Shown here: positions 28,934 to 53,646 of the stretch, piece after piece | Layout: the number at the start of each line of letters is the position of its first letter | Numbering within the stretch: position 1 is the stretch's first letter | Source: Actinomycetota bacterium | GTDB taxonomy: Bacteria > Actinomycetota > Actinomycetes > Propionibacteriales > Propionibacteriaceae | Assembly: GCA_020161015.1 (NCBI GenBank) | Contig: JAIUOT010000049.1 | Location: 62,001 to 126,000 of the forward strand | Direction: 5' to 3' | DNA: 64,000 nucleotides | Translations under genes and position numbers: made by a program | The notes under the pieces: generated by a model | Told to the model about the DNA's origin: nothing | The model's database searches: none | What the model saw: only the letters and a program-made list of their open reading frames with translations

Positions 28934-30019
28934 ATGAACCAGCGCCTGGCGGACCTGTCCGCGGCCGGCGTCTCGATCTGGTTGGACGACCTGTCCCGGG
29001 CACGGATCGCCAGCGGCAACCTCGCCGGGATGATCCGCGACAACGCCGTGGTCGGGGTCACCACCAACCCCACGATCTTCGCCGCGGCCCTGACGCATGG
29101 CGCCGACTACGCCGCCCAGCTCGAGGAGCTGGGCCAGGTGACGGTGGCCGAGGCCATCACGGCGCTGACCACGACGGACGTGCGCGACGCCTGCGACCTG
29201 TTCGCACCCACCTACGCGCGCACCGGAGGCTTCGACGGCCGCGTCTCGATCGAGGTCGAGCCCGGCGTGGCCCATGACACCGCCGCGACCACGACCCAGG
29301 CGGCGGAACTCCACCGCATCGTCGACCGCGAGAACGTGCTGATCAAGATCCCCGCGACGCAGGCCGGGCTGGCCGCGATCGAGGAGACGATCGCCGCGGG
29401 CATCTCGGTCAACGTCACCCTGATCTTCTCCGTCGAGCGCTACCGCGCCGTGATGGACGCCTACCTCGCCGGCCTCGAGCGGGCGGCCGACGCCGGCCGG
29501 GACCTGTCCCGGATCCACTCGGTGGCGTCCTTCTTCATCTCCCGGGTCGACACGGAGGTCGACCGCCGGCTGGAGTCGCTCGGCCGTGCCGACCTGCGGG
29601 GGCGCGCGGCCATCGCGAACGCGCAGGTGGCGCTCGCCGCGTACGCGGAGGTGTTCTCCGGGGATCGGTTCGCGGCCCTCGCCGCCCGCGGTGCGAACGT
29701 GCAGCGACCGCTGTGGGCGTCCACCGGGACGAAGGACCCGGCGTACCCCGACACGCTCTACGTGGCCGGGCTGGTCGCCCGGGGAGTGGTGAACACCATG
29801 CCGGAGAAGACGCTGCTGGCCTTCGCCGATCACGGCGAGCCGGGCGAGCCCATCGAGGGCCGCGGGTCCGAGGGGCGGGCGGTGCTCGACGAGGTCGCCG
29901 CCGCGGGGGTGGACCTCGCCGACGTGTTCGAGGTGCTCGAGGCGGAGGGCGTGGAGAAGTTCGCCGCCTCCTGGGACGAACTGGTGGCCACCGTCCGGGA
30001 CGCGCTGGGGGCGCGGTAG
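28934..30019 (+). CDS. tal: Transaldolase
   Basis: A 361-residue transaldolase of the pentose-phosphate pathway that moves a three-carbon unit between sugar phosphates through a Schiff base. The active-site Lys sits in [13 protein letters not shown], and the block [11 protein letters not shown] and the motif [16 protein letters not shown] are characteristic of the actinobacterial Tal. ATG 28934 follows GGAGGAG. It lies upstream of the bgl operon but has its own terminator at 30032. The usual partners tkt, zwf and opcA are not in the window. Confidence 0.95.
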
Positions 30020-30222: not shown

Positions 30223-33593
<3,371 letters not shown>

Positions 33594-33600
33594 CCCCCGT

Positions 33601-33672
33601 CCGCTTCGCTACGCGACGTTCGTCCCGCTGCGTGAGTTCGGGCAGCGTTGTCGACTCCGCGTAGCGAAGCGG
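33601..33672. repeat. Nested palindrome between bglA and the antiterminator gene
   Basis: Outer arms CCGCTTCGCTACGCG (33601-33615) and CGCGTAGCGAAGCGG (33658-33672) are perfect; inside them CGCTGC and GCAGCG form a second stem. The outer arms are also bordered by CCCGT and GGGACGGG. It may act as a terminator or be a solitary repeat element; only one copy is in the window. Confidence 0.7.
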
Positions 33673-33712
33673 GGACGGGTGCAGACTGGGCGCAGAGCCG
33701 GAAAGGCCGCAC

Positions 33713-34555
33713 ATGGAAGTGCTCAAGGTCTTCAACAACAACGTCGTGCTCGCCCGTGACCACGACGCGAGCGAGGTCGTGCTCACCGGGCGAGGGCTCG
33801 GCTACCAGGCGCGCCGCGGCGACCCGGTGGACGAGTCGCGGGTCGCCCAGCGGTTCCGTCCGGACGCGGAGCACGACGTCCAGCAGCTCACGGCGTTCCT
33901 CACCGAGATCCCGCCCGAGCACCTCGCGCTGGCTGCGGAGATCCTCCATGACGCGCAGGACGACCTGGAGACGACCTTCACCCAGGGCATGGTGATCCCG
34001 CTCGCCGACCACATCAGCTTCGCGATCAAGAGGGTGCGCCAGCACATCGCGGTCGAGTACCCGCTGCGTTCGGAGGTCGCGCACCTGTACCCCCGGGAGC
34101 TGCGGGTGGCGCGTCGTGCCGTCGCGCTCGTCGCCGCCCGCACCGGGGTGGACCTGCCGGCCGACGAGGCGGTGCCCATCGCCCTGCACTTCGTCAACGC
34201 GCTGTTCGCCACCGACGACCTGTCGCGGACGTTCCGGATGACCGAGCTCTTCCGGCAGGTGTTCGAGATCCTCGACTCCGCCTACGACCGGCACTTCGAC
34301 ACCGAGAGCATCAACGCCGCGCGGTTCATCACCCACCTGCGCTACTTCTTCGTCCGGGTGGACACCGACCGGCAGCTGATGGAGAACCCGGAGACCTTCA
34401 CGACCACGATCCGGCAGTCGTTCCCCGACGCCTACCTGTGTGCAGAGCGGGTGAAGGCGCTGCTGGAGTTGCGGCTCGAGAAGCCGATCAGCACCGACGA
34501 GGTGGTGTACCTGACCCTGCACGTCGCGCGCCTCGCCACCGAGGCGGCCCGCTGA
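33713..34555 (+). CDS. licT: BglG/LicT-family transcription antiterminator
   Basis: A 280-residue RNA-binding regulator: the N-terminal CAT domain (EVLKVFNNNVVLARD, then TGRGLGYQARRGD, residues 2-56) binds RAT RNA, and two PRD domains follow with conserved His (LADHISFAIKR in PRD1; IALHFVNALF and LTLHVARLA in PRD2). PTS-dependent phosphorylation of these His controls dimer formation. As the third gene of the bgl operon it should bind the RAT at 30119 and open its own operon. Confidence 0.95.
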   Translation: MEVLKVFNNNVVLARDHDASEVVLTGRGLGYQARRGDPVDESRVAQRFRPDAEHDVQQLTAFLTEIPPEHLALAAEILHDAQDDLETTFTQGMVIPLADHISFAIKRVRQHIAVEYPLRSEVAHLYPRELRVARRAVALVAARTGVDLPADEAVPIALHFVNALFATDDLSRTFRMTELFRQVFEILDSAYDRHFDTESINAARFITHLRYFFVRVDTDRQLMENPETFTTTIRQSFPDAYLCAERVKALLELRLEKPISTDEVVYLTLHVARLATEAAR

Positions 34556-44583: not shown

Positions 44584-45516
44584 GTGAGCGAGCCGCGCAC
44601 CCGTGACTGGCGACCGGCGTGGCCATGCCCGGTCGGCGAGGTGTGGGGGCCGGGCAGGCGCGGCGTGGCCGACCCGACGCACCGGGTGCTCAAGGGCGTC
44701 CACTGGCGCGCGGTGGGCACGGTGGACGGGCCGGCGACGCTCGCCGTTTCGCCGCTCGACGGCACCGGCGTCGTGCACGCCGAGGCCTGGGGCCCCGGCG
44801 CCGAGCGGGTGCTCGACCGGCTCCCGTCCCTGCTGGGCGCCCTGGACGACCCGTCGGGCTTCCGCCCGCTGCACCCGGTGGTCGCCGAGCTGCACCGCAG
44901 GCGTCCGCACTGGCGGCTGGCGCGCACGGCCAGCGTCTGGGACGCGCTCGTGCCGGTGGTGATCGAGCAGAAGGTGACCGGTCAGGAGGCCACGATCGGC
45001 ATCCGCTCGCTGCTCGCGCGGTACGGCAGCCCGGCGCCCGGCCACGGCGCGTCCCTGGGCCTGCGCACCTTCCCCTCACCGGAGGAGGTCCGGCTGGTGC
45101 CGTCCTGGGAGTGGCTGTCGCTGGGCATCGACCCGGCCCGCTCGCGCACGCTGGTCGCTGCGGCGCGGGTGGCGCCGACGCTGGAGCGCGTCCTGCCCGC
45201 AGAACCCGACGCCGCGGACGCGCGCCTGCGCAGCCTGCCGGGCATCGGGGTGTGGTCGAGCGCGGAGGTCCGTGCCCGTGCCCTCGGCGACGCGGACGCG
45301 GTGAGCTTCGGCGACTACCACGTGCCGCGCGACGTCGGTTGGGCCCTGGTCGGCACCGAACTGGACGACGACGGACTCGCCACGTTGCTGGAGCCGTACC
45401 GTCCGCACCGCCTGCGCGTGCAGCGGCTGGTGGCGCTGGCCGGGCTGCACCGGCCGCGCCACGGGCCCCGGCTGGCCCCGAGGACGCATCTTCCGGCCCG
45501 CAGGGGGCGCGCCTAG
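44584..45516 (+). CDS. DNA-3-methyladenine glycosylase family (AlkA, HhH-GPD)
   Basis: A 310-residue protein with a C-terminal HhH-GPD domain: helix-hairpin-helix LRSLPGIGVWSSAEV followed by ALGDADAVSFGDYHVP, whose Asp (in GDYH) is the catalytic position. The N-terminal 150 residues resemble the AlkA beta-domain. The family removes alkylated bases. The start is GTG 44584. It stands beside the ATP-dependent ligase. Confidence 0.85.
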   Translation: MSEPRTRDWRPAWPCPVGEVWGPGRRGVADPTHRVLKGVHWRAVGTVDGPATLAVSPLDGTGVVHAEAWGPGAERVLDRLPSLLGALDDPSGFRPLHPVVAELHRRRPHWRLARTASVWDALVPVVIEQKVTGQEATIGIRSLLARYGSPAPGHGASLGLRTFPSPEEVRLVPSWEWLSLGIDPARSRTLVAAARVAPTLERVLPAEPDAADARLRSLPGIGVWSSAEVRARALGDADAVSFGDYHVPRDVGWALVGTELDDDGLATLLEPYRPHRLRVQRLVALAGLHRPRHGPRLAPRTHLPARRGRA

Positions 45517-45544
45517 TCTTGGACCCGTCCAGGTGGAGGCAGCG

Positions 45545-47317
45545 ATGACGCAGATCCAGGCTCGGGAACGGGCATCGGTCGACGACGCCCTCGCGGCTGT
45601 CGCCAACGACCTCGCCGGGGAGTTCCGGCTGCAACCCCTCCTGGAGAAGATCCTGCGCAGCGCGGTCGAGCTGCTGGGCTGCCACAGCGGCTCGTTGTGC
45701 CTGATCGACCAGGTGAGCCACACCTACCGGAAGGAGATCGACCTCGACGAGGGCTGCCAGACCGGCATGGTGTTCTCGCTCGAGGAGGGCTGCACGGGGG
45801 CGGTCGCCCGCGCGGGCAAGCCGGTGATCTTCGAGCGCTACGGCCAGGTGCGCAACGGTCACATCCGTCCCGACGAGCCCCGCTACGGCCGCGCGGTGAT
45901 CGGCGTCCCGATCACGGTGCGCACGAGCATGATCGGTGCCTGCATCGTGTTCGCCGCCACGGACGAGCAGCGGTTCGGTGCCGCGGACGCCCAGCTGCTC
46001 CAGCGCTTCGCGACCCACGCCGCCATCGCGATCGCCAACTCCCGGCTGCACGAGGAGTCGTCCGAGCGGGCGAAGGCGGCCGCGGTGGCCTCCGAACGCG
46101 AGCGCTCGATGCTCGAGGTGCACGACAGCATCGGACGCGGCCTGGCCACAGTCGCGCTGCGGATCGCCGAGGCGCACGCCGCCGTCAGCCACGGCGAGGA
46201 CCCGCTGCCCGCGCTCACCCAGGCCCAGCAGGCGGCCCAGGAGACGATGAACTCCGGACGCCGGGCCGTCTGGGGGCTGGGCCCGGCCGGGCTGGCCGGC
46301 CGTCCGCTCGAGGAGAGCATCGGGCTGGAGCTGGAGTGGGTGCAGGCGACGTCCGACCTGGCCGCGACGTTCCGGGTGTTCGGCGATCGCCAGCCCCTGC
46401 CGCGCAACGTCGAGACCCAGGTGCTGCGGATCGTCCAGGAATCGCTGACCAACGTGGTGCAGCACGCCCGCGCGTCCGGCGTGCGGGTGGGGCTGGTGTA
46501 CGGCTCCGACGGCATCGCCGTGATCGTGGAGGACGACGGCTGCGGGTTCGACCCCGACAAGGGGCGCCGGCAGGGGGTCGGGCTGCCGGGGCTCGTGGCG
46601 CGCGCGGCCCAGGTCGGTGGACGGGTGCGCATCGACTCGACCCCGGGCTGGGGCACCCGGATCAGGGCCGACCTGCCCTACCGCGCGGCGTTGAGCGGGG
46701 TGGCCGAGAGCCCTCGACTCCGGGTGGTGCTGGTGCACCCGTTGCCGGCGATGCGGGCCGGGCTGGTCCGCATGCTCGACGCCAGCGAGCCGGGGGTGCA
46801 GGTGGTCGCGGAGGTGGCCGACGTCGGCCCCGCGGTGGAGGCCGTGCGGTTGCTGCGTCCCGACGTCGTGCTGGTGGGCACCCGCCTGCCGGGCGCCGCC
46901 GGCCCGGAACTGGTCGCCGCGCTGCGGGCCTCGGCCGCTTCCGCCGGGGTCGTGGCGGTGATCGACCCGGGCACACCCGAGGCGGAGCTGCGCGACTGGG
47001 CGGCTGCGGGCGTCCGTGGCTTCGTCCAGGCCGACGTGGACGCCATGACGCTGGGCCGCGCCGTCATCGGGGTGGCGCGCGGCGACGTCCTGGTCTTCGG
47101 CGGGATGCTGGCACAGCTCGGCGGCCTGCCCGCCGTCGACGCCGACCGGCTCACCGGGCGCGAGGCTGAGGTGCGCAGCCTGCTCGAACAGGGCCTGGCC
47201 GACAAGCAGATCGCCTCCCGCCTGGGCATCTCGGTGAAAACCGTCGAGAAGCATGTGAGCGCGATCCTCCGCAAGGGCGGCGTGCGCTCCCGCACCGAGC
47301 TGCTCGCCCGCGCCTGA
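45545..47317 (+). CDS. Fused sensor: GAF, NarL-type histidine kinase, dead receiver, LuxR DNA-binding domain
   Basis: One chain of 590 residues joins a GAF sensor domain (about 25-180), a HisKA_3 dimerisation helix with phospho-His H193 in LEVHDSIGR, an HATPase (N-box QESLTNVVQHA, VEDDGCGFD, GVGLPGLVARA; about 290-390), a receiver-like domain (about 392-515) and a LuxR HTH (LADKQIASRLGISVKTVEKHV, about 549-570). Normally kinase and regulator are separate proteins. The receiver lacks its phospho-Asp (VLVGTRLPG, where VLxDxRxPG is usual) and the acidic pair (LVHPLP). ATG 45545 follows GGAGG. It may be a DNA-bound sensor for the operon after it. Confidence 0.85.
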   Translation: MTQIQARERASVDDALAAVANDLAGEFRLQPLLEKILRSAVELLGCHSGSLCLIDQVSHTYRKEIDLDEGCQTGMVFSLEEGCTGAVARAGKPVIFERYGQVRNGHIRPDEPRYGRAVIGVPITVRTSMIGACIVFAATDEQRFGAADAQLLQRFATHAAIAIANSRLHEESSERAKAAAVASERERSMLEVHDSIGRGLATVALRIAEAHAAVSHGEDPLPALTQAQQAAQETMNSGRRAVWGLGPAGLAGRPLEESIGLELEWVQATSDLAATFRVFGDRQPLPRNVETQVLRIVQESLTNVVQHARASGVRVGLVYGSDGIAVIVEDDGCGFDPDKGRRQGVGLPGLVARAAQVGGRVRIDSTPGWGTRIRADLPYRAALSGVAESPRLRVVLVHPLPAMRAGLVRMLDASEPGVQVVAEVADVGPAVEAVRLLRPDVVLVGTRLPGAAGPELVAALRASAASAGVVAVIDPGTPEAELRDWAAAGVRGFVQADVDAMTLGRAVIGVARGDVLVFGGMLAQLGGLPAVDADRLTGREAEVRSLLEQGLADKQIASRLGISVKTVEKHVSAILRKGGVRSRTELLARA

Positions 47318-47321
47318 GTGC

Positions 47322-47355
47322 TCCGGGCGCCGGGGCGACCGGCCCGGCGCCCGGA
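47322..47355 (+). terminator. Terminator of the fused sensor gene
   Basis: Perfect 13-base arms TCCGGGCGCCGGG and CCCGGCGCCCGGA with an eight-base loop, starting five bases after the stop. Confidence 0.8.
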
Positions 47356-47367
47356 TCCCCCATGCCA

Positions 47368-47398
47368 CCCCCCACACGGCTGTGGGGGGATTACCCCA
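47368..47398. promoter_or_regulatory. Overlapping inverted repeats before the aldolase operon
   Basis: CCCCCCACA and TGTGGGGGG with CGGC between are perfect 9-base arms (47368-47389). Overlapping this, TGGGG and CCCCA around GGATTA (47383-47398) form a second dyad. A TAGCGT box at 47423 could be the -10. The location suits a NarL/LuxR-type binding site for the sensor gene upstream. Confidence 0.55.
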
Positions 47399-47454
47399 TA
47401 CCTGCTCCCGGGCGGCCCGACCTAGCGTGAAGGCGTACCTGACGAGAGGAGCCA

Positions 47455-48315
47455 ATGGTGGCTGTCCAGTCCTTGGCGGACATCCTCAGGCCGGCCTTCG
47501 CCCAGCGCTACGGCGTCCCGGCCATCAACATCCTCAACGACCTCACCATGGAGAACGTGCTCGCGGGGGCGGTCGAGGCACGGTCGCCGGTGATCCTCCA
47601 GACCTCGGTGAAGACCGTCCGTTCGATCGGCGTGAACACCCTGTTCCAGATGTGGAAGGCCATGACGGCGGGCATCGAGGTGCCCTGCGCGCTGCACCTC
47701 GACCACTGCCCCGACCGCCAGGTGATCAGCGACTGCCTGGCCGCCGGCTGGAACTCCGTGCTGTTCGATGCGTCGCAGCTGCCGGTGGAGGAGAACCAGC
47801 GCCAGACCGTCGAGGTGGTCGCGGAGGCGCGCCGCTACGACGCCCATGTGGAGGGCGAGATCGAGTCGATCACGGGCCAGGAGGACGGGATCGGCTCGGA
47901 CGAGGAGTCCAAGCGCCAGACCCTCGAGGTGACGCTGCGCTACCTCGAGGCCACGAACGTGGACGTGTTCGCCCCCGCGATCGGCAACGCGCACGGCACC
48001 TACAAGCGGGCGCCGGTGCTCGACTTCCAGCGCGTCTCCGACATCGTGGACGCCCATCCGGTGCCCATCGCGCTGCACGGCGGCAGCGGCCTGAGCGACG
48101 AGCAGTTCCGTGACTGCATCGCCCGCGGCTGCGCCAAGGTGAACATCTCGACGGCGCTGAAGGAGACCTTCATGCAGTCGAGCCTGGCCTTCCTCAAGGA
48201 CGCGGAGGCGAAGGCGAAGTGGGACCCGCCGTCGCTGTTCACCGCCGTCGGCGCGGACGTCCGCGCGATGACCAGGCATTTCGCAGAGGTGTTCGGCAGC
48301 GCGGGGAGGGCCTGA
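47455..48315 (+). CDS. Class II ketose-bisphosphate aldolase
   Basis: A 286-residue zinc aldolase of the FbaA/GatY/KbaY family. Zinc ligands and catalytic residues are visible: LHLDHC (Asp and His), HVEGEIESI (Glu), GNAHGTYK (His) and ALHGGSGL (His), then VNISTAL at the phosphate site. It splits a ketose-1,6-bisphosphate, or a related ketose phosphate, into dihydroxyacetone phosphate plus an aldehyde. The ATG has GAGAGGAG. It opens an operon with a HAD phosphatase, DhaL, DhaK and a transaldolase-like gene, so the true substrate may differ from fructose bisphosphate. Confidence 0.88.
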   Translation: MVAVQSLADILRPAFAQRYGVPAINILNDLTMENVLAGAVEARSPVILQTSVKTVRSIGVNTLFQMWKAMTAGIEVPCALHLDHCPDRQVISDCLAAGWNSVLFDASQLPVEENQRQTVEVVAEARRYDAHVEGEIESITGQEDGIGSDEESKRQTLEVTLRYLEATNVDVFAPAIGNAHGTYKRAPVLDFQRVSDIVDAHPVPIALHGGSGLSDEQFRDCIARGCAKVNISTALKETFMQSSLAFLKDAEAKAKWDPPSLFTAVGADVRAMTRHFAEVFGSAGRA

Positions 48316-48316
48316 C

Positions 48317-49069
48317 ATGCCGGCCCTGGTCTTCGACTGCGACGGCGTGCTGGCCGACACGGAGAAGGACGGCCACCTGCCCGCCTTCAACGACGCGTTC
48401 GCCGAGTTCGGGGTGCCGGTCCGCTGGGACGTGCCCACGTACGCGGAGAAGGTGAAGATCGGCGGGGGCAAGGAACGGATCGCCTCCGACCTGCCCGACC
48501 CCGACGGCGCCGCCGACCTGATCAGGCACCTCCACGCCCGCAAGACGCAGCTGTTCCTCGAACGGGTGCGTGACGGCCAGCTCCCCGGCCGTCCCGGCAT
48601 CCACCGGATCGTCGCCGACGCCCTCGCCCACGGGTGGACGGTCGCCGTCGCGTCCACCTCCGCCGAACCGTCGGTGCGGGGCGTCCTCGAGCACGCGGTC
48701 GGTGCGGAGCTGGCCGCGCGGTGCCACGTCTTCGCCGGCGACATCGTGCCGCGGAAGAAGCCGGCACCGGACATCTACCTCAAGGTCCTCGACGACCTCC
48801 GCCTCGACCCCGCCGAGTGCCTGGTCGTGGAGGACTCCGGGATCGGCGTCCAGGCGGCCCGCGGTGCGGGGCTCGCGGTGGTGGTGACGGTCAGCACCTT
48901 CACCGCGGACGACGACTTCACCGGGGCGTCCCTTGTGCTCAGCCACCTGGGTGACCCGGGCGACCCGCTGGCCGTGGTGTCCGCGCCGGCGGGCGTCCGC
49001 CCCGAGGGGATGGTCACGCTGGCCGACCTCGAGCAGCTGCTCCCAACCAACCAGGAGGAATCCAGATGA
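48317..49069 (+). CDS. HAD hydrolase, CbbY/phosphoglycolate phosphatase-like
   Basis: A 250-residue HAD phosphatase with motif I FDCDGVLADTE, motif II VASTSAE and motif III/IV PRKKPAPDIYLK and VVEDSGIGVQAA. The cap (residues 20-95) is of the CbbY type, seen in sugar-phosphate phosphatases and phosphomutases. It starts one base after the aldolase stop and overlaps the DhaL start by 4 bases. It probably dephosphorylates an intermediate of the pathway; the substrate is not shown. Confidence 0.87.
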   Translation: MPALVFDCDGVLADTEKDGHLPAFNDAFAEFGVPVRWDVPTYAEKVKIGGGKERIASDLPDPDGAADLIRHLHARKTQLFLERVRDGQLPGRPGIHRIVADALAHGWTVAVASTSAEPSVRGVLEHAVGAELAARCHVFAGDIVPRKKPAPDIYLKVLDDLRLDPAECLVVEDSGIGVQAARGAGLAVVVTVSTFTADDDFTGASLVLSHLGDPGDPLAVVSAPAGVRPEGMVTLADLEQLLPTNQEESR

Positions 49070-49701
49070 CCGGATCCATCACCGACGTCGAGTTCGTGAT
49101 GCGGAACATCGCCGAGAACATCGTCGCCAACGAGACCTACTTCGGGGAGCTGGACGCCGTCGTCGGCGACGGCGACTTCGGCTACTCGCTGGCCCGCGGC
49201 TTCGAGATCGCGCTCGAGCAGTGGGACAGCTTCGACCGCAGCGACCCCGGTGTCTTCCTCACCAAGATCGCCGCGGCCGTCTCCGCACGGATCGGCGGCA
49301 CCTCCGGCCCGATCTGGGGCACCGCCATGCTCCGGGCCGGGGTGCAGCTGAAGGAACACCCCCAGATCGAGGGCGCGGACGTGGTGCGCGCGCTGCGCGC
49401 CTCGGTCGAGGGGATCAAGGCGAGGGGTCAGGCCGACCTGGGTGACAAGACCCTGCTGGACGCCCTGGTCCCCGCCATCGACACCCTCGAGGCGGAGTCG
49501 GCGGCCGGCCACGGCGCAGCCGAGATCGTGCGCGCCATGGCCGTCACCGCGCGGGCAGCGGCGGAGAACACCAAGACGATGCAGGCCATGCGCGGCCGCG
49601 CGTCCTACACCGGCGAGCGCAGCATCGGGTCGGTCGACGCCGGCGCCATGGCGATCGCCGTCCTGCTGGAGGCCCTGGCCGAGGCCTGGTCGAAGCGCTA
49701 G
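49066..49701 (+). CDS. dhaL: Dihydroxyacetone kinase-type subunit DhaL
   Basis: A 211-residue helical ATP/ADP-binding subunit. The nucleotide metal motif DAVVGDGDFG, the phosphate loop GGTSGPIWGTAML, the GDKTLLDAL block and GRASYTGERSIGSVDAGAMA are characteristic of DhaL. With DhaK it phosphorylates a ketose. In PTS-linked systems DhaL-bound ADP is recharged by DhaM, and no dhaM is here, so either DhaM is elsewhere or the pair uses ATP. Confidence 0.93.
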   Translation: MTGSITDVEFVMRNIAENIVANETYFGELDAVVGDGDFGYSLARGFEIALEQWDSFDRSDPGVFLTKIAAAVSARIGGTSGPIWGTAMLRAGVQLKEHPQIEGADVVRALRASVEGIKARGQADLGDKTLLDALVPAIDTLEAESAAGHGAAEIVRAMAVTARAAAENTKTMQAMRGRASYTGERSIGSVDAGAMAIAVLLEALAEAWSKR

Positions 49702-49749
49702 CCACCCATCCGTCCCACACCACAACCCGAACCCGAGGAAGGGAAATCC

Positions 49750-50745
49750 ATGAAGAAGTTCGTCAACGATCCCAAGCAGTTCGTCCCCGAGATGCTGAAG
49801 GGCATCGCCCTGGCCAACCCGGACACCATCACATACGTGCCCGAGTACAACCTGATCATGCGGGCCGACGCCCCCAACCACGACAAGGTGAGCATCGTGC
49901 AGGGGTCGGGCTCCGGCCACGAGCCGGCCCACGTGATGGTGGTCGGCCCCGGCATGCTCGACGCGGCCTGCCCCGGTGACGTGTTCGCCGCCCCGCCGAG
50001 CGACTACGTGTACCAGACCGCCAAGCTGGTCGCCTCCGACAAGGGCGTCCTGCTGCTGGTGAACAACTACACCGGGGACCGGATGGCGTTCGAGATGGCG
50101 CAGGAACTCGCCGAGGCCGAGGGCCTCAAGGTGACCACCCTGTTCATCAACGACGACGTCGCGGTGCAGGACTCCACCTGGACCGTGGGCCGCCGCGGCG
50201 TGGCCGGCAACTTCTTCGTGATCAAGGCCGTGGGCGCGAAGTCCGAGCAGGGAGCCTCGCTGGAAGAGGTGAAGGCGATCGGCGAGAAGGTGAACTCGGT
50301 GACCCGCACGATGGGCATCGCGCTCAGCTCCTGCACCCCGCCGGCCAAGGGCGTGCCGCTGTTCGAGATCGCGGACGACGAGATGGAGGTCGGCGTGGGA
50401 ATCCACGGCGAGCCCGGACGCCGTCGCGCCAAGCTGGTCAGCGCGGACGAGATCGTCGACGAACTGCTCGGCGCGGTCGTGCCCGACCTGCCCTTCACCG
50501 CCGGCGACCGCGTCGCACTGATGATCAACGGCCTGGGCGGAACCCCGATCAGCGAGCTCTACCTGCTGTTCGGCATCGCAGCGCAAAAGCTGGCCGACCA
50601 GGGCATCACGGTCGCGAGGAGCTACGTCGGCGAGTACTGCACCAGCCTCGAGATGGCCGGTGCGTCGCTGACGCTGGTGAAGCTGGACGACGAGATCGAG
50701 GCGCTCCTCGAGGCTCCGGCGTCCATCGTGAACCGCATCTTCTGA
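49750..50745 (+). CDS. dhaK: Dihydroxyacetone kinase-type subunit DhaK
   Basis: A 331-residue ketose-binding subunit. The conserved His that binds the ketone covalently, H219 in GVGIHGEPG, is present, as are GSGSGHEPAH and VNNYTGDRMAFEMA. Relatives act on dihydroxyacetone, but also on erythrulose and other small ketoses. The gene starts with a typical ribosome site (GAGGAAGGG). The order dhaL-dhaK is reversed relative to many operons (dhaKLM). Confidence 0.93.
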   Translation: MKKFVNDPKQFVPEMLKGIALANPDTITYVPEYNLIMRADAPNHDKVSIVQGSGSGHEPAHVMVVGPGMLDAACPGDVFAAPPSDYVYQTAKLVASDKGVLLLVNNYTGDRMAFEMAQELAEAEGLKVTTLFINDDVAVQDSTWTVGRRGVAGNFFVIKAVGAKSEQGASLEEVKAIGEKVNSVTRTMGIALSSCTPPAKGVPLFEIADDEMEVGVGIHGEPGRRRAKLVSADEIVDELLGAVVPDLPFTAGDRVALMINGLGGTPISELYLLFGIAAQKLADQGITVARSYVGEYCTSLEMAGASLTLVKLDDEIEALLEAPASIVNRIF

Positions 50746-50874
50746 CCGGCTGCGGTTCGTCCGTCTGACCCGTCCCCGTCCGCGCGCGGGGAGTCCCGCG
50801 GTGGCGACACCGCCGGACCCGCCGCGCCGGGCGGGGCGGGCCGGGATTCGATCCCCGTCGAAAGGATCCCGATC

Positions 50875-52185
50875 ATGGCCACCTCCTGTGGCATCGCCTT
50901 CGAGGTCGCCTCGCTCGGACTGCCCCCGGTGTCCGGCGAGGAGGAGCTCGTCGGCCGGCTCTCCCGCCTCCCCCTGTCGGAGGAGACCTTCGCGCAGGCC
51001 CTGCGCTACGGCCGCCAGCTCGGCGTCACCGCGGAGTTCTCCCGTGTCATCGACTACTTCGCGGTCCCGCCGGGCCACCTGCCGGCGGGCTTCCGCGTGG
51101 TGTGGAGACTGGCGGCGGACGGCCTGCTGTCCGCCGACCTCGTCCGCGACATCGGCCAGGACGCCGACGGCGTCCCGCGCCCCACCCCGATGCTGTTCTC
51201 CGCGGACACCGCGAACCCCTACGAGCTGGAGCCGGTCGCACCGCTGATCGCCAATCTCACCTGCAACCCCGGCATCATCTACGACCTGTTCATCAACAAC
51301 CCCCGGGCCAACGTCGAGCACCGGTACTCGACGCGGGATGAGGTGATGACCGAGATCGCCCGGATCCTGGGGCCGGGATGTGACGTGTCGGTGGAGCTGA
51401 ACGACCCGTTCGAGCCCGACTTCGGCAAGGTGCTGGCAGAGTGCGAGCAGATGCGCGACATCCTCGGCGAGTGGCGGACGGTGATCAAGGTGCCGCACAC
51501 CGGGCCGGTCAGCGCGGCCAACGTTCCCGAGCTGCTCACCGGCGACACGCGCCTGCGCCGCCGCTGGGACACCGCGACCCCGGAGGAGGCCTTCGCCGGC
51601 CACCGGCTCGCGCTGCGGCTGCGCGAGCACGGCTTCCGGGTGAACTTCACGCTGATGTTCGAGCCCTACCAGGCCCGGCTCGCCCTCCAGGCCCGGCCAG
51701 CGTTCATCAACAGCTTCATCCGCAACCGGCTGGCCCAGACCCGGCGGATGGCCGAGCTGCTCGAACGCGGACGCGACGACGCCGAGGCGCTGGTCGAGTT
51801 GCGCGACTACCTGGTCGGCGTCGACGCGCTGTCCGGCGACGAGGCGGACGCGCCGGTGGAGGTGGCCGCCGCCATCGCGCGCCGGGCGGTCGCGTCCCGG
51901 CGCATCGACGACCCCGAGGGCGCGGACGGGCTGGACGGCGTCCGGCACAACCTGCGGGTGCTGCGGCAGGCCGACCTGCCGGACACGCGGCTGATCGTCT
52001 GCTCGCTGGAGGGGGAGGCGATGTACCCCGACATCGACCGGCTGCTCACCGAGCCGGAGTTCGCCGACATGGCCGGACGCGTGGTGGTCACCGCCGAACC
52101 CGGCTACCTCGCCCGCTTCGCGTCCGCGAGCCAGGTGGTCAGCTACCAGCGGCGGTTCCTGGCTGCGGCTCGCGGGCAGCGCTGA
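50875..52185 (+). CDS. Transaldolase-like TIM-barrel protein
   Basis: A 436-residue protein related to the transaldolase/fructose-6-phosphate aldolase family. The blocks IANLTCNPGIIYDLF, VSVELNDPFEPD, RTVIKVPHTG (with a Lys in the Schiff-base position) and GFRVNFTLMFEPYQA align in order with the VTTNPTIF, VSxEV, VxIKIPAT and NVTLIFS blocks of transaldolases. It is longer and diverged (436 versus 361 residues for the true Tal at 28934). It is the last gene of the aldolase/DHA kinase operon, so it likely acts on a sugar phosphate there. Its reaction is unknown. Confidence 0.7.
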   Translation: MATSCGIAFEVASLGLPPVSGEEELVGRLSRLPLSEETFAQALRYGRQLGVTAEFSRVIDYFAVPPGHLPAGFRVVWRLAADGLLSADLVRDIGQDADGVPRPTPMLFSADTANPYELEPVAPLIANLTCNPGIIYDLFINNPRANVEHRYSTRDEVMTEIARILGPGCDVSVELNDPFEPDFGKVLAECEQMRDILGEWRTVIKVPHTGPVSAANVPELLTGDTRLRRRWDTATPEEAFAGHRLALRLREHGFRVNFTLMFEPYQARLALQARPAFINSFIRNRLAQTRRMAELLERGRDDAEALVELRDYLVGVDALSGDEADAPVEVAAAIARRAVASRRIDDPEGADGLDGVRHNLRVLRQADLPDTRLIVCSLEGEAMYPDIDRLLTEPEFADMAGRVVVTAEPGYLARFASASQVVSYQRRFLAAARGQR

Positions 52186-52215
52186 ACTCCGAGCGGCGTC
52201 CGGGCCCGGCGCGCG

Positions 52216-53145
52216 TCAGGAGGTGAGCTTGATGGTGGGAACGCCGAAATGGGTGGCGTTGACGTCGATGGTGTAGTTGCCGGTGAGGTCGACGTAGTTG
52301 GTGAACGTGCCTTTGACCTGCTTGTCCGCCGGGCACTTGGTGACGTTCCACTTCGCGCTCGAGGAGAAGCAGTAACCGGTGATGGTGAAGGCGGCCAGGC
52401 CCTTGATCTTGTACTGGGCGTTGCTGCCGGTTCCGCTCACCGCGTCGAAGATCGGCACCAGCACGGTCTTGTTCTGGATGGTGGTCCAGTCGAAGTCCTT
52501 GCACGACGTCGAGCCGTCATTGCCGGGGTCGCTGAGCACCCACTGCCCGGACACGACCATGGACACGCATTTCACTCCGGTCAGCCAGCCGAAGCCGCCC
52601 GGAACTTCGTTGTGGGCCGGCGGGGTGCAGCTCTTCTCGATCAGGTGGACGGTGGTCTGCCCGGCAACGAGCGGCTTGCCCTGGTCGTCCCAGCCCCCGG
52701 TCGCCTCATAGAAGGCGCACCAGGAGAAGGTCAGGGGAAGGGTCGCGCCCGCCGAGGGCCAGCCCCACTGCGCGGTCGCCCGTGCGGTGAGGTCCGTGGT
52801 GGGGAACCCGAGGATCCCGGCGAAGTAGTTGGTCCGGGTGGCCTGGGCAGAGACGGTCACCGTCGAGGGCCCGATCGGTCCCTCGACAGTGCCGGAGGCC
52901 TTCCCGTCGAGCTTGTTCGCCTTCACGTAGGTGTCGGCACTGTCGACGCAGGCCCCGCGGGCGCAGGACTCCGCGATCGCGAGCGCGGCCGCGTCCGCGC
53001 CGTTGCGGAGCTGCTGCTGCTCGGCGTACGCCATTCCCAGGTCGACCGAGAGCGCTCCGCCCGCCATCAGCACCAGCATCAGCAACGCCATCGTGACCGC
53101 GGTGGCACCGCGCTGCGATCCACGCCGCCTGGTCATCCGCCGCAT
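52216..53145 (-). CDS. TadG-like pilus-associated protein (Tad domain)
   Basis: A 309-residue protein with an N-terminal hydrophobic segment (ATAVTMALLMLVLMAGGALSV) that follows the Arg-rich RRRGSQRG, then DLGMAYAEQQQLRNGADAAALA, the Tad/TadG signature of putative Flp-pilus or secretion proteins. The rest is an exported domain with nine Cys, suggesting disulfides. Start 53145 has GGGAG upstream; ATG 53136 would instead overlap the TadE stop by 4 bases. No TadA, TadB, TadC or CpaF genes are near, so it is an orphan pair. Confidence 0.75.
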   Translation of the reverse strand: MRRMTRRRGSQRGATAVTMALLMLVLMAGGALSVDLGMAYAEQQQLRNGADAAALAIAESCARGACVDSADTYVKANKLDGKASGTVEGPIGPSTVTVSAQATRTNYFAGILGFPTTDLTARATAQWGWPSAGATLPLTFSWCAFYEATGGWDDQGKPLVAGQTTVHLIEKSCTPPAHNEVPGGFGWLTGVKCVSMVVSGQWVLSDPGNDGSTSCKDFDWTTIQNKTVLVPIFDAVSGTGSNAQYKIKGLAAFTITGYCFSSSAKWNVTKCPADKQVKGTFTNYVDLTGNYTIDVNATHFGVPTIKLTS

Positions 53146-53522
53146 TGCATGCTCCCGATCCCCTTGAGGCTGACCTGGCTGCCGAGGATCCCGTCGAACC
53201 ACCCGGTGATCGACCGGTACCGGTAGGTCAGGGTGAGGGTCGTCTGGCCCATCGGGGTGCACGGTGCGGAGAACGTGCCGGAGACCTCCGCGCCGGGAGT
53301 CAGGGCGGACCTGGCCAGGTCGATGGCGGCCTGTTGGGCTCCTGGCGCCGTGTAGTTGATGGCGTAGTTGCGGACGCCGAGACGGGCAGCGTTGGAGACC
53401 GACGCCTGGACGAGGAACGCGTAGCTGAACTCGATGATGCCGAGCAGCAGGATCATCAGGACCGGAAGGATCAGGGCGAACTCCACGGCGACACTCCCGC
53501 GCTCACGTCTCGTGGTCCGCAT
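53133..53522 (-). CDS. TadE-like pseudopilin-type membrane protein
   Basis: A 129-residue protein with the TadE-like start RRERGSVAVEFALILPVLMILLLGIIEF: a Gly-Ser cleavage-like region, a Glu inside the hydrophobic helix and then an exported domain ending in a Cys. TadE proteins are minor components of Flp pili or related secretion systems. The gene overlaps the TadG-like one by 13 bases. The ATG 53522 has only a weak ribosome site. No other pilus genes are in the window. Confidence 0.78.
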   Translation of the reverse strand: MRTTRRERGSVAVEFALILPVLMILLLGIIEFSYAFLVQASVSNAARLGVRNYAINYTAPGAQQAAIDLARSALTPGAEVSGTFSAPCTPMGQTTLTLTYRYRSITGWFDGILGSQVSLKGIGSMQCGG

Positions 53523-53646
53523 GATCGTCCCCCACTCGGCCCGGGTGGAGGCGAAGCACCTGCTCGGACGCGGGGGCACGTCTCCACACCTGCTATACCG
53601 CGCGAGGAGGCCCGGGGGTTACGGGTGTGCGCAGCAATTCAGCGAA

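Follow-up and report, generated by a model that had tools for sequence, protein, structure and literature searches.

In methylotrophic yeasts, dihydroxyacetone (DHA) kinase, an aldolase, a phosphatase and a transaldolase work as a set in the xylulose monophosphate (DHA) cycle. The golD operon of Listeria reportedly combines DHA kinase genes with genes of the transketolase/transaldolase type, its own dhaM and a glycerol dehydrogenase gene, and we know of no CbbY-type HAD phosphatase in it. Here we report on six genes in a 64-kb stretch of DNA from a bacterium of the Propionibacteriaceae (the whole stretch is called the window below), in which a single-chain sensor is followed by a class II aldolase, a CbbY-type HAD phosphatase, the kinase subunits DhaL2 and DhaK2 and a large transaldolase-like protein. 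We found that this cluster is real and conserved and that its gene order is not due to chance. The core consists of four genes, those for aldolase, HAD, DhaL and DhaK, while the transaldolase is a frequent, not a constant, partner. The cluster probably phosphorylates DHA or a similar ketose and feeds the pentose phosphate network, and it belongs among the DHA-kinase-type modules tied to pentose phosphate chemistry.

Compared with the yeast cycle, the cluster has a bacterial two-subunit kinase and a CbbY-type phosphatase. With E. coli DhaKLM it shares the DhaK/DhaL architecture and the two His and one Asp residues, and its DhaL is nearest to chains of the phosphotransferase system (PTS) type; however, the cluster contains no DhaM, its DhaK forms a separate clade that differs at the E. 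coli positions G52, M59, G62, S80, T82 and K104, and an aldolase and a CbbY-type HAD are attached. The HAD protein resembles the CbbY phosphatases of Arabidopsis and Rhodobacter sphaeroides over nearly its whole length, with conserved residues in common, but it sits with an aldolase and a DHA kinase, in most carriers tested without a RuBisCO match. The last protein shares with TM0295, TalB and fructose-6-phosphate aldolase (FSA) the barrel fold, a lysine on a strand and, by alignment, the Asp, Asn, Glu, Thr and Phe positions. It differs from them by its length of 436 residues, an N-terminal part of its own and a longer C-terminal half. We found no literature that pairs CbbY with dihydroxyacetone kinase, and no published pathway with these parts came up by title and abstract start, in line with what the first-pass annotation of this DNA had assumed; the subscription literature lay mostly outside this search.

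All six open reading frames were confirmed on the plus strand, and Pfam agrees with the line-up of aldolase, HAD, DhaL, DhaK and transaldolase-like barrel behind a fused sensor that had been read from the DNA before (Table 1). The aldolase, HAD and DhaL genes abut or overlap, 48 bases precede DhaK and 129 bases precede the transaldolase-like gene. An in-frame GTG lies 12 bases upstream of the sensor start at 45545. We detected no transporter, sugar isomerase or sugar dehydrogenase in the window's cluster. The lack of an isomerase, which had been noted earlier, is therefore true of this cluster but not of its relative L133, where an RpiB-type isomerase stands beside the kinase genes. A scan for sigma-70 promoters and terminators over 45000-52600 gave no candidate. 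The genome of the window (G000; 3.67 Mb, 65 contigs) is grouped in one genus with G018.

Table 1. Features of the cluster and of the gap between sensor and aldolase (positions in the window).
Feature	Position	Strand	Basis or remark
Single-chain sensor	45545..47317	+	Pfam GAF + HisKA_3 + HATPase_c + receiver + LuxR helix-turn-helix
Perfect 13-base inverted repeat, 8-base loop, possible hairpin	47322..47355		Directly after sensor stop
Inverted repeat CCCCCCACA-4-TGTGGGGGG	47368..47389		Sensor-aldolase gap; candidate operator for LuxR domain
Class II (zinc) aldolase	47455..48315	+	PF01116 (F_bP_aldolase) 5.2e-77
CbbY-type HAD phosphatase	48317..49069	+	Pfam HAD 6.2e-23; match to AtCbbY 4uav
DhaL2, nucleotide-binding kinase subunit	49066..49701	+	Dak2 1.6e-48; TIGR02365
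DhaK2, ketose-binding kinase subunit, separate clade	49750..50745	+	Dak1 1.7e-123; TIGR02363
436-residue transaldolase-fold protein, family of its own	50875..52185	+	PF00923 (TAL_FSA) 1.6e-11

Relatives were sought by a genome-contig scan with the last protein, which gave 126 relatives, and 80 loci were kept. Comparison of the six window proteins by tblastn with these 80 loci and with stretches fetched later furnished 16 loci that hold a DhaK of the DhaK2 clade: the window, L011 (a Propionicimonas metagenome-assembled genome), L012 (Georgenia), L013 (Anaerolineaceae), L014 (Pengzhenrongella), L020 (Acidobacteria), L022 and L045 (both Cellulomonas), L033 (Flaviflexus), L117-L121, L128 and L133, with G018 and L011 counted once. 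Aldolase, HAD, DhaL and DhaK occur together in 13 of these 16 loci, all five metabolic genes in 10 and the transaldolase in 12. The rates for the transaldolase and for the five-gene set are to be read with the fact that 10 of the 16 loci were found via the transaldolase. A search that started from DhaK gave a different picture for the last gene. Six genomes in a sample of 396 from the phylum carry DhaK2 at an identity of at least 73% (the window's own included; next best 56%). Five of them have aldolase and HAD in the locus, while a recognisable transaldolase is present in only two; in the sixth, L121, DhaL stands only 0.2 kb from the end of the contig, where a 25-residue piece of the transaldolase is left. 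The five-gene order proposed earlier thus recurs as a gene set, but the transaldolase is accessory, and we dropped the idea of five genes as an obligate unit. The four core proteins diverge together: across the 13 loci with all four and a DhaK2, their pairwise identities correlate at 0.63 (aldolase-DhaK) to 0.92 (DhaL-DhaK). An apparent lack of co-divergence of the aldolase with DhaK (0.24, with 0.95 for DhaL-DhaK) came from two fused-kinase loci and is not upheld without them.

Other loci keep the aldolase and the HAD and exchange the kinase. G167 (L155) retains sensor, aldolase and HAD but has one fused DhaK-DhaL kinase instead of the pair (PRK14479, 697.8 bits, cut-off 492), and next to its sensor lies a full ordinary transketolase (815.9 bits, cut-off 682.25). 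G459 (L166) has a fused kinase beside aldolase and HAD, as seen by gene call and tblastn. The second copy in G025 (L131) places there a kinase of the FGGY family, which comprises kinases of ketoses and polyols, and in L015, L035, L039 and L065 a cluster assigned to FGGY by a single N-terminus lies in the locus of aldolase and HAD. Because the kinase type swaps while aldolase and CbbY-type HAD stay, these two are the constant pair in these loci, and we predict from the sequences that a kinase for a ketose or a triose supplies this pair or draws from it. A second arrangement is seen in L033, L121 and L133, where the transaldolase or a piece of it is the sole partner seen adjoining the kinase genes. 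L133 has the order transaldolase C-terminal piece, DhaL-DhaK, split transketolase, RpiB-type isomerase, and in L033 the aldolase and HAD lie about 9 kb from DhaL-DhaK, beside a fused kinase.

The residues of the constant pair are well kept. D83, H84, H180 and H208 of the aldolase, which we take to be the zinc-site ligands, are invariant in 15 aligned aldolases, as expected from the intact zinc ligands recognised in the first reading. The label HAD phosphatase holds as a family name but was too broad. Compared with solved chains, the protein matches AtCbbY (4uav) at E 8.6e-58 and CbbY (4uar) at 7e-37, with the next different molecule only at 8e-13, and D7, D9, H20 and G51-K52-E53-R54 are invariant in 15 aligned members. 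Judged by these residues and matches it is a CbbY-type and not a generic HAD, with a predicted CbbY-like activity. PMC10212915 describes CbbY enzymes as highly specific xylulose 1,5-bisphosphate phosphatases with a repair role, and reports that xylulose 1,5-bisphosphate was prepared by aldol addition of dihydroxyacetone phosphate (DHAP) to glycolaldehyde phosphate.

We searched for RuBisCO at E 0.001 in 16 carrier genomes, namely 15 of the 16 DhaK2 genomes (not G014) and G167, some of which are incomplete, and obtained no match in 10 of these. Strong matches were found in the window's genome, G018 and G459, whereas the other three of the six matches are weak or split. The RuBisCO of the window's genome belongs to the PRK13475 family (843.6 bits, cut-off 489), presumably form II. 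With 10 carriers lacking a match, RuBisCO probably does not explain the CbbY-type HAD in every carrier, and we set aside a role of the HAD as a RuBisCO helper only. A role as sole fructose-bisphosphatase (FBPase) was also set aside, since the genome has a class 1 FBPase-family gene elsewhere (253 bits, under the cut-off of 349). This gene stands beside the RuBisCO gene. Indeed, in three actinobacterial carriers RuBisCO lies beside a gene with a class 1 FBPase-like start: G000 (C23:4132-5028; L159:4066-5634, minus strand), G018 (L160:9842-11338) and G459 (L161:8602-9987). Neither a phosphoribulokinase nor a RuBisCO small subunit was noticed in 50 kb of the contig in the window's genome, where N-termini only were read and no profile search was made.

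DhaK2 and DhaL2 exceed the cut-offs of TIGR02363 (426.1 bits, cut-off 406.25) and TIGR02365 (176 bits, cut-off 138.3), respectively. The best solved chain for DhaL2 is a PTS-dependent DhaL (1.8e-31), the single-chain DHA kinase 1un9 scoring 7e-17, and D30, D35 and D37 are invariant in 17 aligned members. In a tree of 37 DhaK proteins (midpoint root), a branch supported at 100/99 sets the 16 cluster members apart. All 16 keep H57, D110 and H219, which correspond to E. coli H56, D109 and H218, so that the ketose-binding H219 pointed out earlier is confirmed by alignment. The clade nevertheless carries changes of its own. In E. coli numbering, G62 to M, T82 to P and K104 to N are found in 16 of 16 DhaK2 and in 0 of 20 other DhaK, 16 of which have K at the K104 position; G52 to S (16/16 vs 3/20), M59 to A (16/16 vs 2/20) and S80 to A (15/16 vs 3/20) are less exclusive. 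In the numbering of the window these are S53, A60, M63, P83 and N105 in all 16 members and A81 in 15. The 20 comparison proteins are those that passed an N-terminus and identity filter; the Dak1 matches in L125, L139 and L153 are among those outside. S80 and K104 of E. coli DhaK are DHA-site residues. By tree and alignment, DhaK2 forms a clade apart that carries fixed changes at or close to the presumed ketose site. A further DhaK type, apart from this cluster, accompanies apparent sugar ABC transporter genes in L151, L153 and L158.

The cluster itself contains no dhaM, as had been observed, but the statement does not extend to the contig: a second DhaK and DhaM follow from 3.7 kb past the window end, about 17 kb downstream of the cluster, with a DhaL-like gene between them (by eye), as in a canonical dha operon. 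The single DhaM match of the genome lies 18.5 kb downstream of DhaK2, near this second DhaK. Since the genome has a second DhaK with DhaM, the DhaKL of the cluster should have another job. The view that this is not a standard dha operon is supported, as seen from the separate DhaK clade, a dhaM outside the cluster and the fixed changes at or close to the ketose site. DhaM was detected in all 14 other carrier genomes tested in addition to the window's own, compared with matches above the cut-off in 70 of the 396 phylum genomes. As DhaM is present in the genome, DhaKL2 may depend on the PTS. The co-occurrence speaks neither for nor against a strict dependence, because all 14 genomes also have at least one further Dak1 gene or piece.

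The 436-residue protein at the end of the cluster has no NCBIfam match at 0.001. An AlphaFold model built on 41 relatives reached a pLDDT of 91.7, and the top Foldseek matches of this model are transaldolases, the best being TM0295 (E 4.9e-11; TM about 0.8 on the target and 0.41 on the query). D111, N131, E174, K205, T259, N279 and F281 are invariant in 41 of 41 relatives and lie on barrel strands of the model. Lys205, part of the VIKVPHTG motif that had been singled out as holding a Schiff-base-type lysine, sits on strand 4 and, given its invariance and this place in the model, would be the Schiff-base former. F178Y turns TalB from a transaldolase into an aldolase (PMC3962226), and D/K/E as opposed to D/K/Q triads separate transaldolase from fructose-6-phosphate aldolase (PMC11659671). 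An identity as fructose-6-phosphate aldolase was rejected, because Glu174 and Phe281 (the latter placed by pattern) are transaldolase-type and invariant, not Gln and Tyr. The similarity by hhalign to canonical transaldolase is weak (probability 24.6%) and convincing only across the strand 3-5 region. By our reading of the alignment, Asn279 takes the position of Ser176 in TalB, and for this reason the donor may differ.

Of 27 genomes tested, four (G462, G464, G470 and G471) have no TAL_FSA type other than the large form. In Clostridia and others, the family occurs with split transketolase, DeoC-like, FGGY kinase, RpiB-like and nucleoside genes, as named from N-termini. Both observations fit a working transaldolase. 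From alignment and model, the last protein represents a separate transaldolase family, which has the residues typical of transaldolases and a predicted transaldolase activity. In eight loci (L049, L056, L058, L067, L071, L074, L085 and L089) the large transaldolase directly follows a DeoC-like gene; these loci resemble a nucleoside-use operon, with phosphopentomutase, nucleoside phosphorylase and a BMP-type binding protein (N-terminus names). The window also holds a canonical transaldolase at 28976-29989 (249.4 bits), followed at 30247-34555 by genes that by eye resemble those of a beta-glucoside PTS permease, a phospho-beta-glucosidase and an antiterminator.

The sensor belongs to the cluster. 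It is found in 4 of the 396 phylum genomes at E 1e-60 or better (the window's own included), in 4 of 4 cases beside aldolase and HAD, and additionally in L011, L128 and L022, in the last split over two hits. Six sequences were aligned (L022 excluded), with the receiver Asp column placed by the general receiver pattern. The kinase His is kept in all six and the LuxR region is conserved. The phospho-Asp of the receiver is absent in four, the window's sensor included, and kept in L119 and L155; the acidic pair is present in L119 only and thus also missing from the window's sensor. Cys46 and Cys71 of the GAF domain are invariant in all six, and no transporter or membrane domain is among the Pfam matches of the sensor. 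Operon control may therefore not need to run through receiver phosphorylation, as we would predict from the alignment.

In the gap behind the sensor, the 13-base repeat is the longest, and its length was matched in 0 of 200 shuffles. L011 has at the same post-sensor position a 34-base, 97% inverted repeat (L011:4398-4465) with a sequence unrelated to that of the window. Repeats of the C-run/G-run kind, to which the candidate operator of Table 1 belongs, were seen in the same gap of L011 (7-base arms), L118 (12) and L155 (9), and none was found in that of L119. For three reasons this repeat is no more than a candidate operator: it is not the longest of the gap in the window or L011, L119 has none, and 13 of 200 shuffles reached the 9-base length of L155. 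A different motif, TGTATAG(A/T)GCGG, lies upstream of the transaldolase and of the aldolase in L128 (7426-9015, 3222-4340), possibly as a shared operator, and upstream of the aldolase in L022 (5530-5757), a candidate operator where the genes are separate transcripts.

Two further observations concern the surroundings. On the minus strand, at 52216-53579 of the window, two small membrane-anchored proteins of the TadE/TadG pilus type (by eye) adjoin the cluster. Three loci have a short GlcG-like protein within or adjoining the cluster (L120:8781-9200, L128:4735-5154 and L022:3557-4123), with weak PRK09732 matches of 51.6 bits in L120 and 47.8 bits in L128 against a cut-off of 246; the L022 case and the name were assigned by eye.

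From the genes, domains, catalytic residues, clade, co-occurrence and fold described above we infer a series of reactions, of which each step, its direction, its substrate and the operator are predictions. DhaK2 would hold the ketose on His219 and DhaL2 would phosphorylate it to DHAP or a ketose 1-phosphate. The class II aldolase would then condense DHAP with an aldehyde or aldehyde phosphate to a ketulose 1-phosphate or bisphosphate, from which the CbbY-type HAD would take off the C1 phosphate, making the aldol step one-way and leaving a ketulose phosphate, for instance xylulose 5-phosphate, fructose 6-phosphate or sedoheptulose 7-phosphate. In the many genomes that have it, the large transaldolase could next shift a three-carbon DHA unit between sugar phosphates and, with the help of a transketolase coded elsewhere, so tie the product to the pentose phosphate pathway. 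The sensor would read a cytoplasmic signal through its GAF domain and control the operon; four of the six aligned sensors would do this with a receiver that lacks its phosphorylation site. We thus tentatively favor the reading that the cluster is a module which, under the control of its sensor, loads a ketose into the pentose phosphate network, with DHA or a close analogue as the likeliest substrate, although we hold this reading with less than even confidence. It draws on the four-gene core in most DhaK2 loci and in five of the six genomes found via DhaK, on the joint divergence of the core proteins, on the adjoining pentose phosphate enzymes (transketolase in L155; split transketolase and RpiB-type isomerase in L133) and on a kinase that is exchangeable while aldolase and HAD remain (L155, L166, L131). 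The CbbY type of the HAD points the same way, xylulose 1,5-bisphosphate being obtainable by aldol addition of DHAP (PMC10212915), as do the second DhaK with DhaM in the genome, the transaldolase-type E174 and F281 and the genomes in which the large form is the sole TAL_FSA type.

Several findings weigh against this loading module. We found no source of the acceptor aldehyde, and the aldolase scores below every listed NCBIfam cut-off (TIGR01859, 219.6 bits against 343.05; TIGR00167, 206.6 against 215.6). In L033, L121 and L133 the kinase genes adjoin the transaldolase or its piece and not aldolase and HAD, so that the kinase also exists without the aldol and phosphatase steps. The transaldolase is absent from G283, G256 and G165, and its step is hence not essential. 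The DhaK2 changes, notably K104 to N, may mean a substrate other than DHA. Furthermore, since the window's genome has the FBPase-family gene (below cut-off) and a canonical transaldolase elsewhere, these activities would not simply be missing without the cluster.

The first-pass annotation had proposed that a ketose is phosphorylated and then cleaved. This gives one direction only, and the CbbY-type phosphatase fits better after a condensation than before a cleavage. In a catabolic pathway, DhaKL2 would phosphorylate a C4-C6 ketose at C1, the aldolase would cleave it to DHAP and an aldehyde, the HAD would repair wrongly phosphorylated side products and the transaldolase would handle later sugar phosphates. 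The fixed changes of DhaK2, such as N at E. coli K104 in all 16 members, are what a larger ketose might need, FGGY-type kinases occur beside the same aldolase and HAD, and the repair role of CbbY is published (PMC10212915). Here, however, the kinase would attach a C1 phosphate and the phosphatase would take one off, so that the two oppose each other, whereas with an aldol condensation in between they could act one after the other; for this reason we prefer synthesis, itself held tentatively, and regard cleavage as unlikely. Additionally, the window's cluster has no transporter, sugar isomerase or dehydrogenase, and both kinase subunits pass the DHA-kinase equivalog cut-offs. The repair role could also account for the HAD in another way. 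It would clear the xylulose 1,5-bisphosphate that an ordinary fructose-bisphosphate aldolase forms as a side product, and in the window's genome protect the presumed form II RuBisCO of the PRK13475 family; DhaKL2 would be a second ATP- or PTS-driven DHA kinase, with the genes joined only by a shared demand in DHA or glycerol use. The presence of DhaM in every carrier tested agrees with this, but the carriers without a RuBisCO match, the weak or split nature of half of the matches and the separate DhaK2 clade with its fixed changes make such a loose association rather improbable.

The part list equals the regeneration arm of the DHA cycle known from methylotrophic yeasts. In a bacterial version, a transketolase would fix formaldehyde as DHA synthase, and DhaKL, aldolase, phosphatase and transaldolase would form the regeneration arm. 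The transketolase next to the sensor in L155 and the split transketolase next to DhaL2-DhaK2 in L133 would suit such a cycle, and the two invariant GAF cysteines could sense an electrophile. Yet the transketolase of L155 passes the cut-off of ordinary transketolases, the window's cluster has no transketolase, and no methanol or formaldehyde gene was recognised in the gene maps, for which N-termini only were read and no profile search was made. We consider this cycle very improbable. Returning to the preferred loading of DHA or a close analogue, a bolder form can be imagined, which we rate as unlikely: a RuBisCO-independent sugar-building route in which a dedicated ketose kinase of new specificity makes DHAP, the aldolase adds it to a phospho-aldehyde and the CbbY-type HAD pulls the sequence toward xylulose 5-phosphate or sedoheptulose 7-phosphate. 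On this route a ketulose 1,5- or 1,7-bisphosphate would be a true intermediate and not damage, and the sensor would be a single-chain kinase-activator switch that works without receiver phosphorylation.

In summary, a CbbY-type gene that is fixed beside an aldolase and a ketose kinase, mostly without a RuBisCO match, suggests another role for the CbbY family. Should the RuBisCO-independent route be true, the RuBisCO repair role of CbbY could go back to an older metabolic function of modules like this one. With 126 relatives found, the family of the large transaldolase is widespread, and its member in the window stands outside the curated NCBIfam models. The second DhaK clade, which is retained alongside another DhaK, gives a defined residue set for assigning a new ketose kinase. 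Finally, the sensors with a decaying receiver provide a natural series for how two-component control can become intramolecular.

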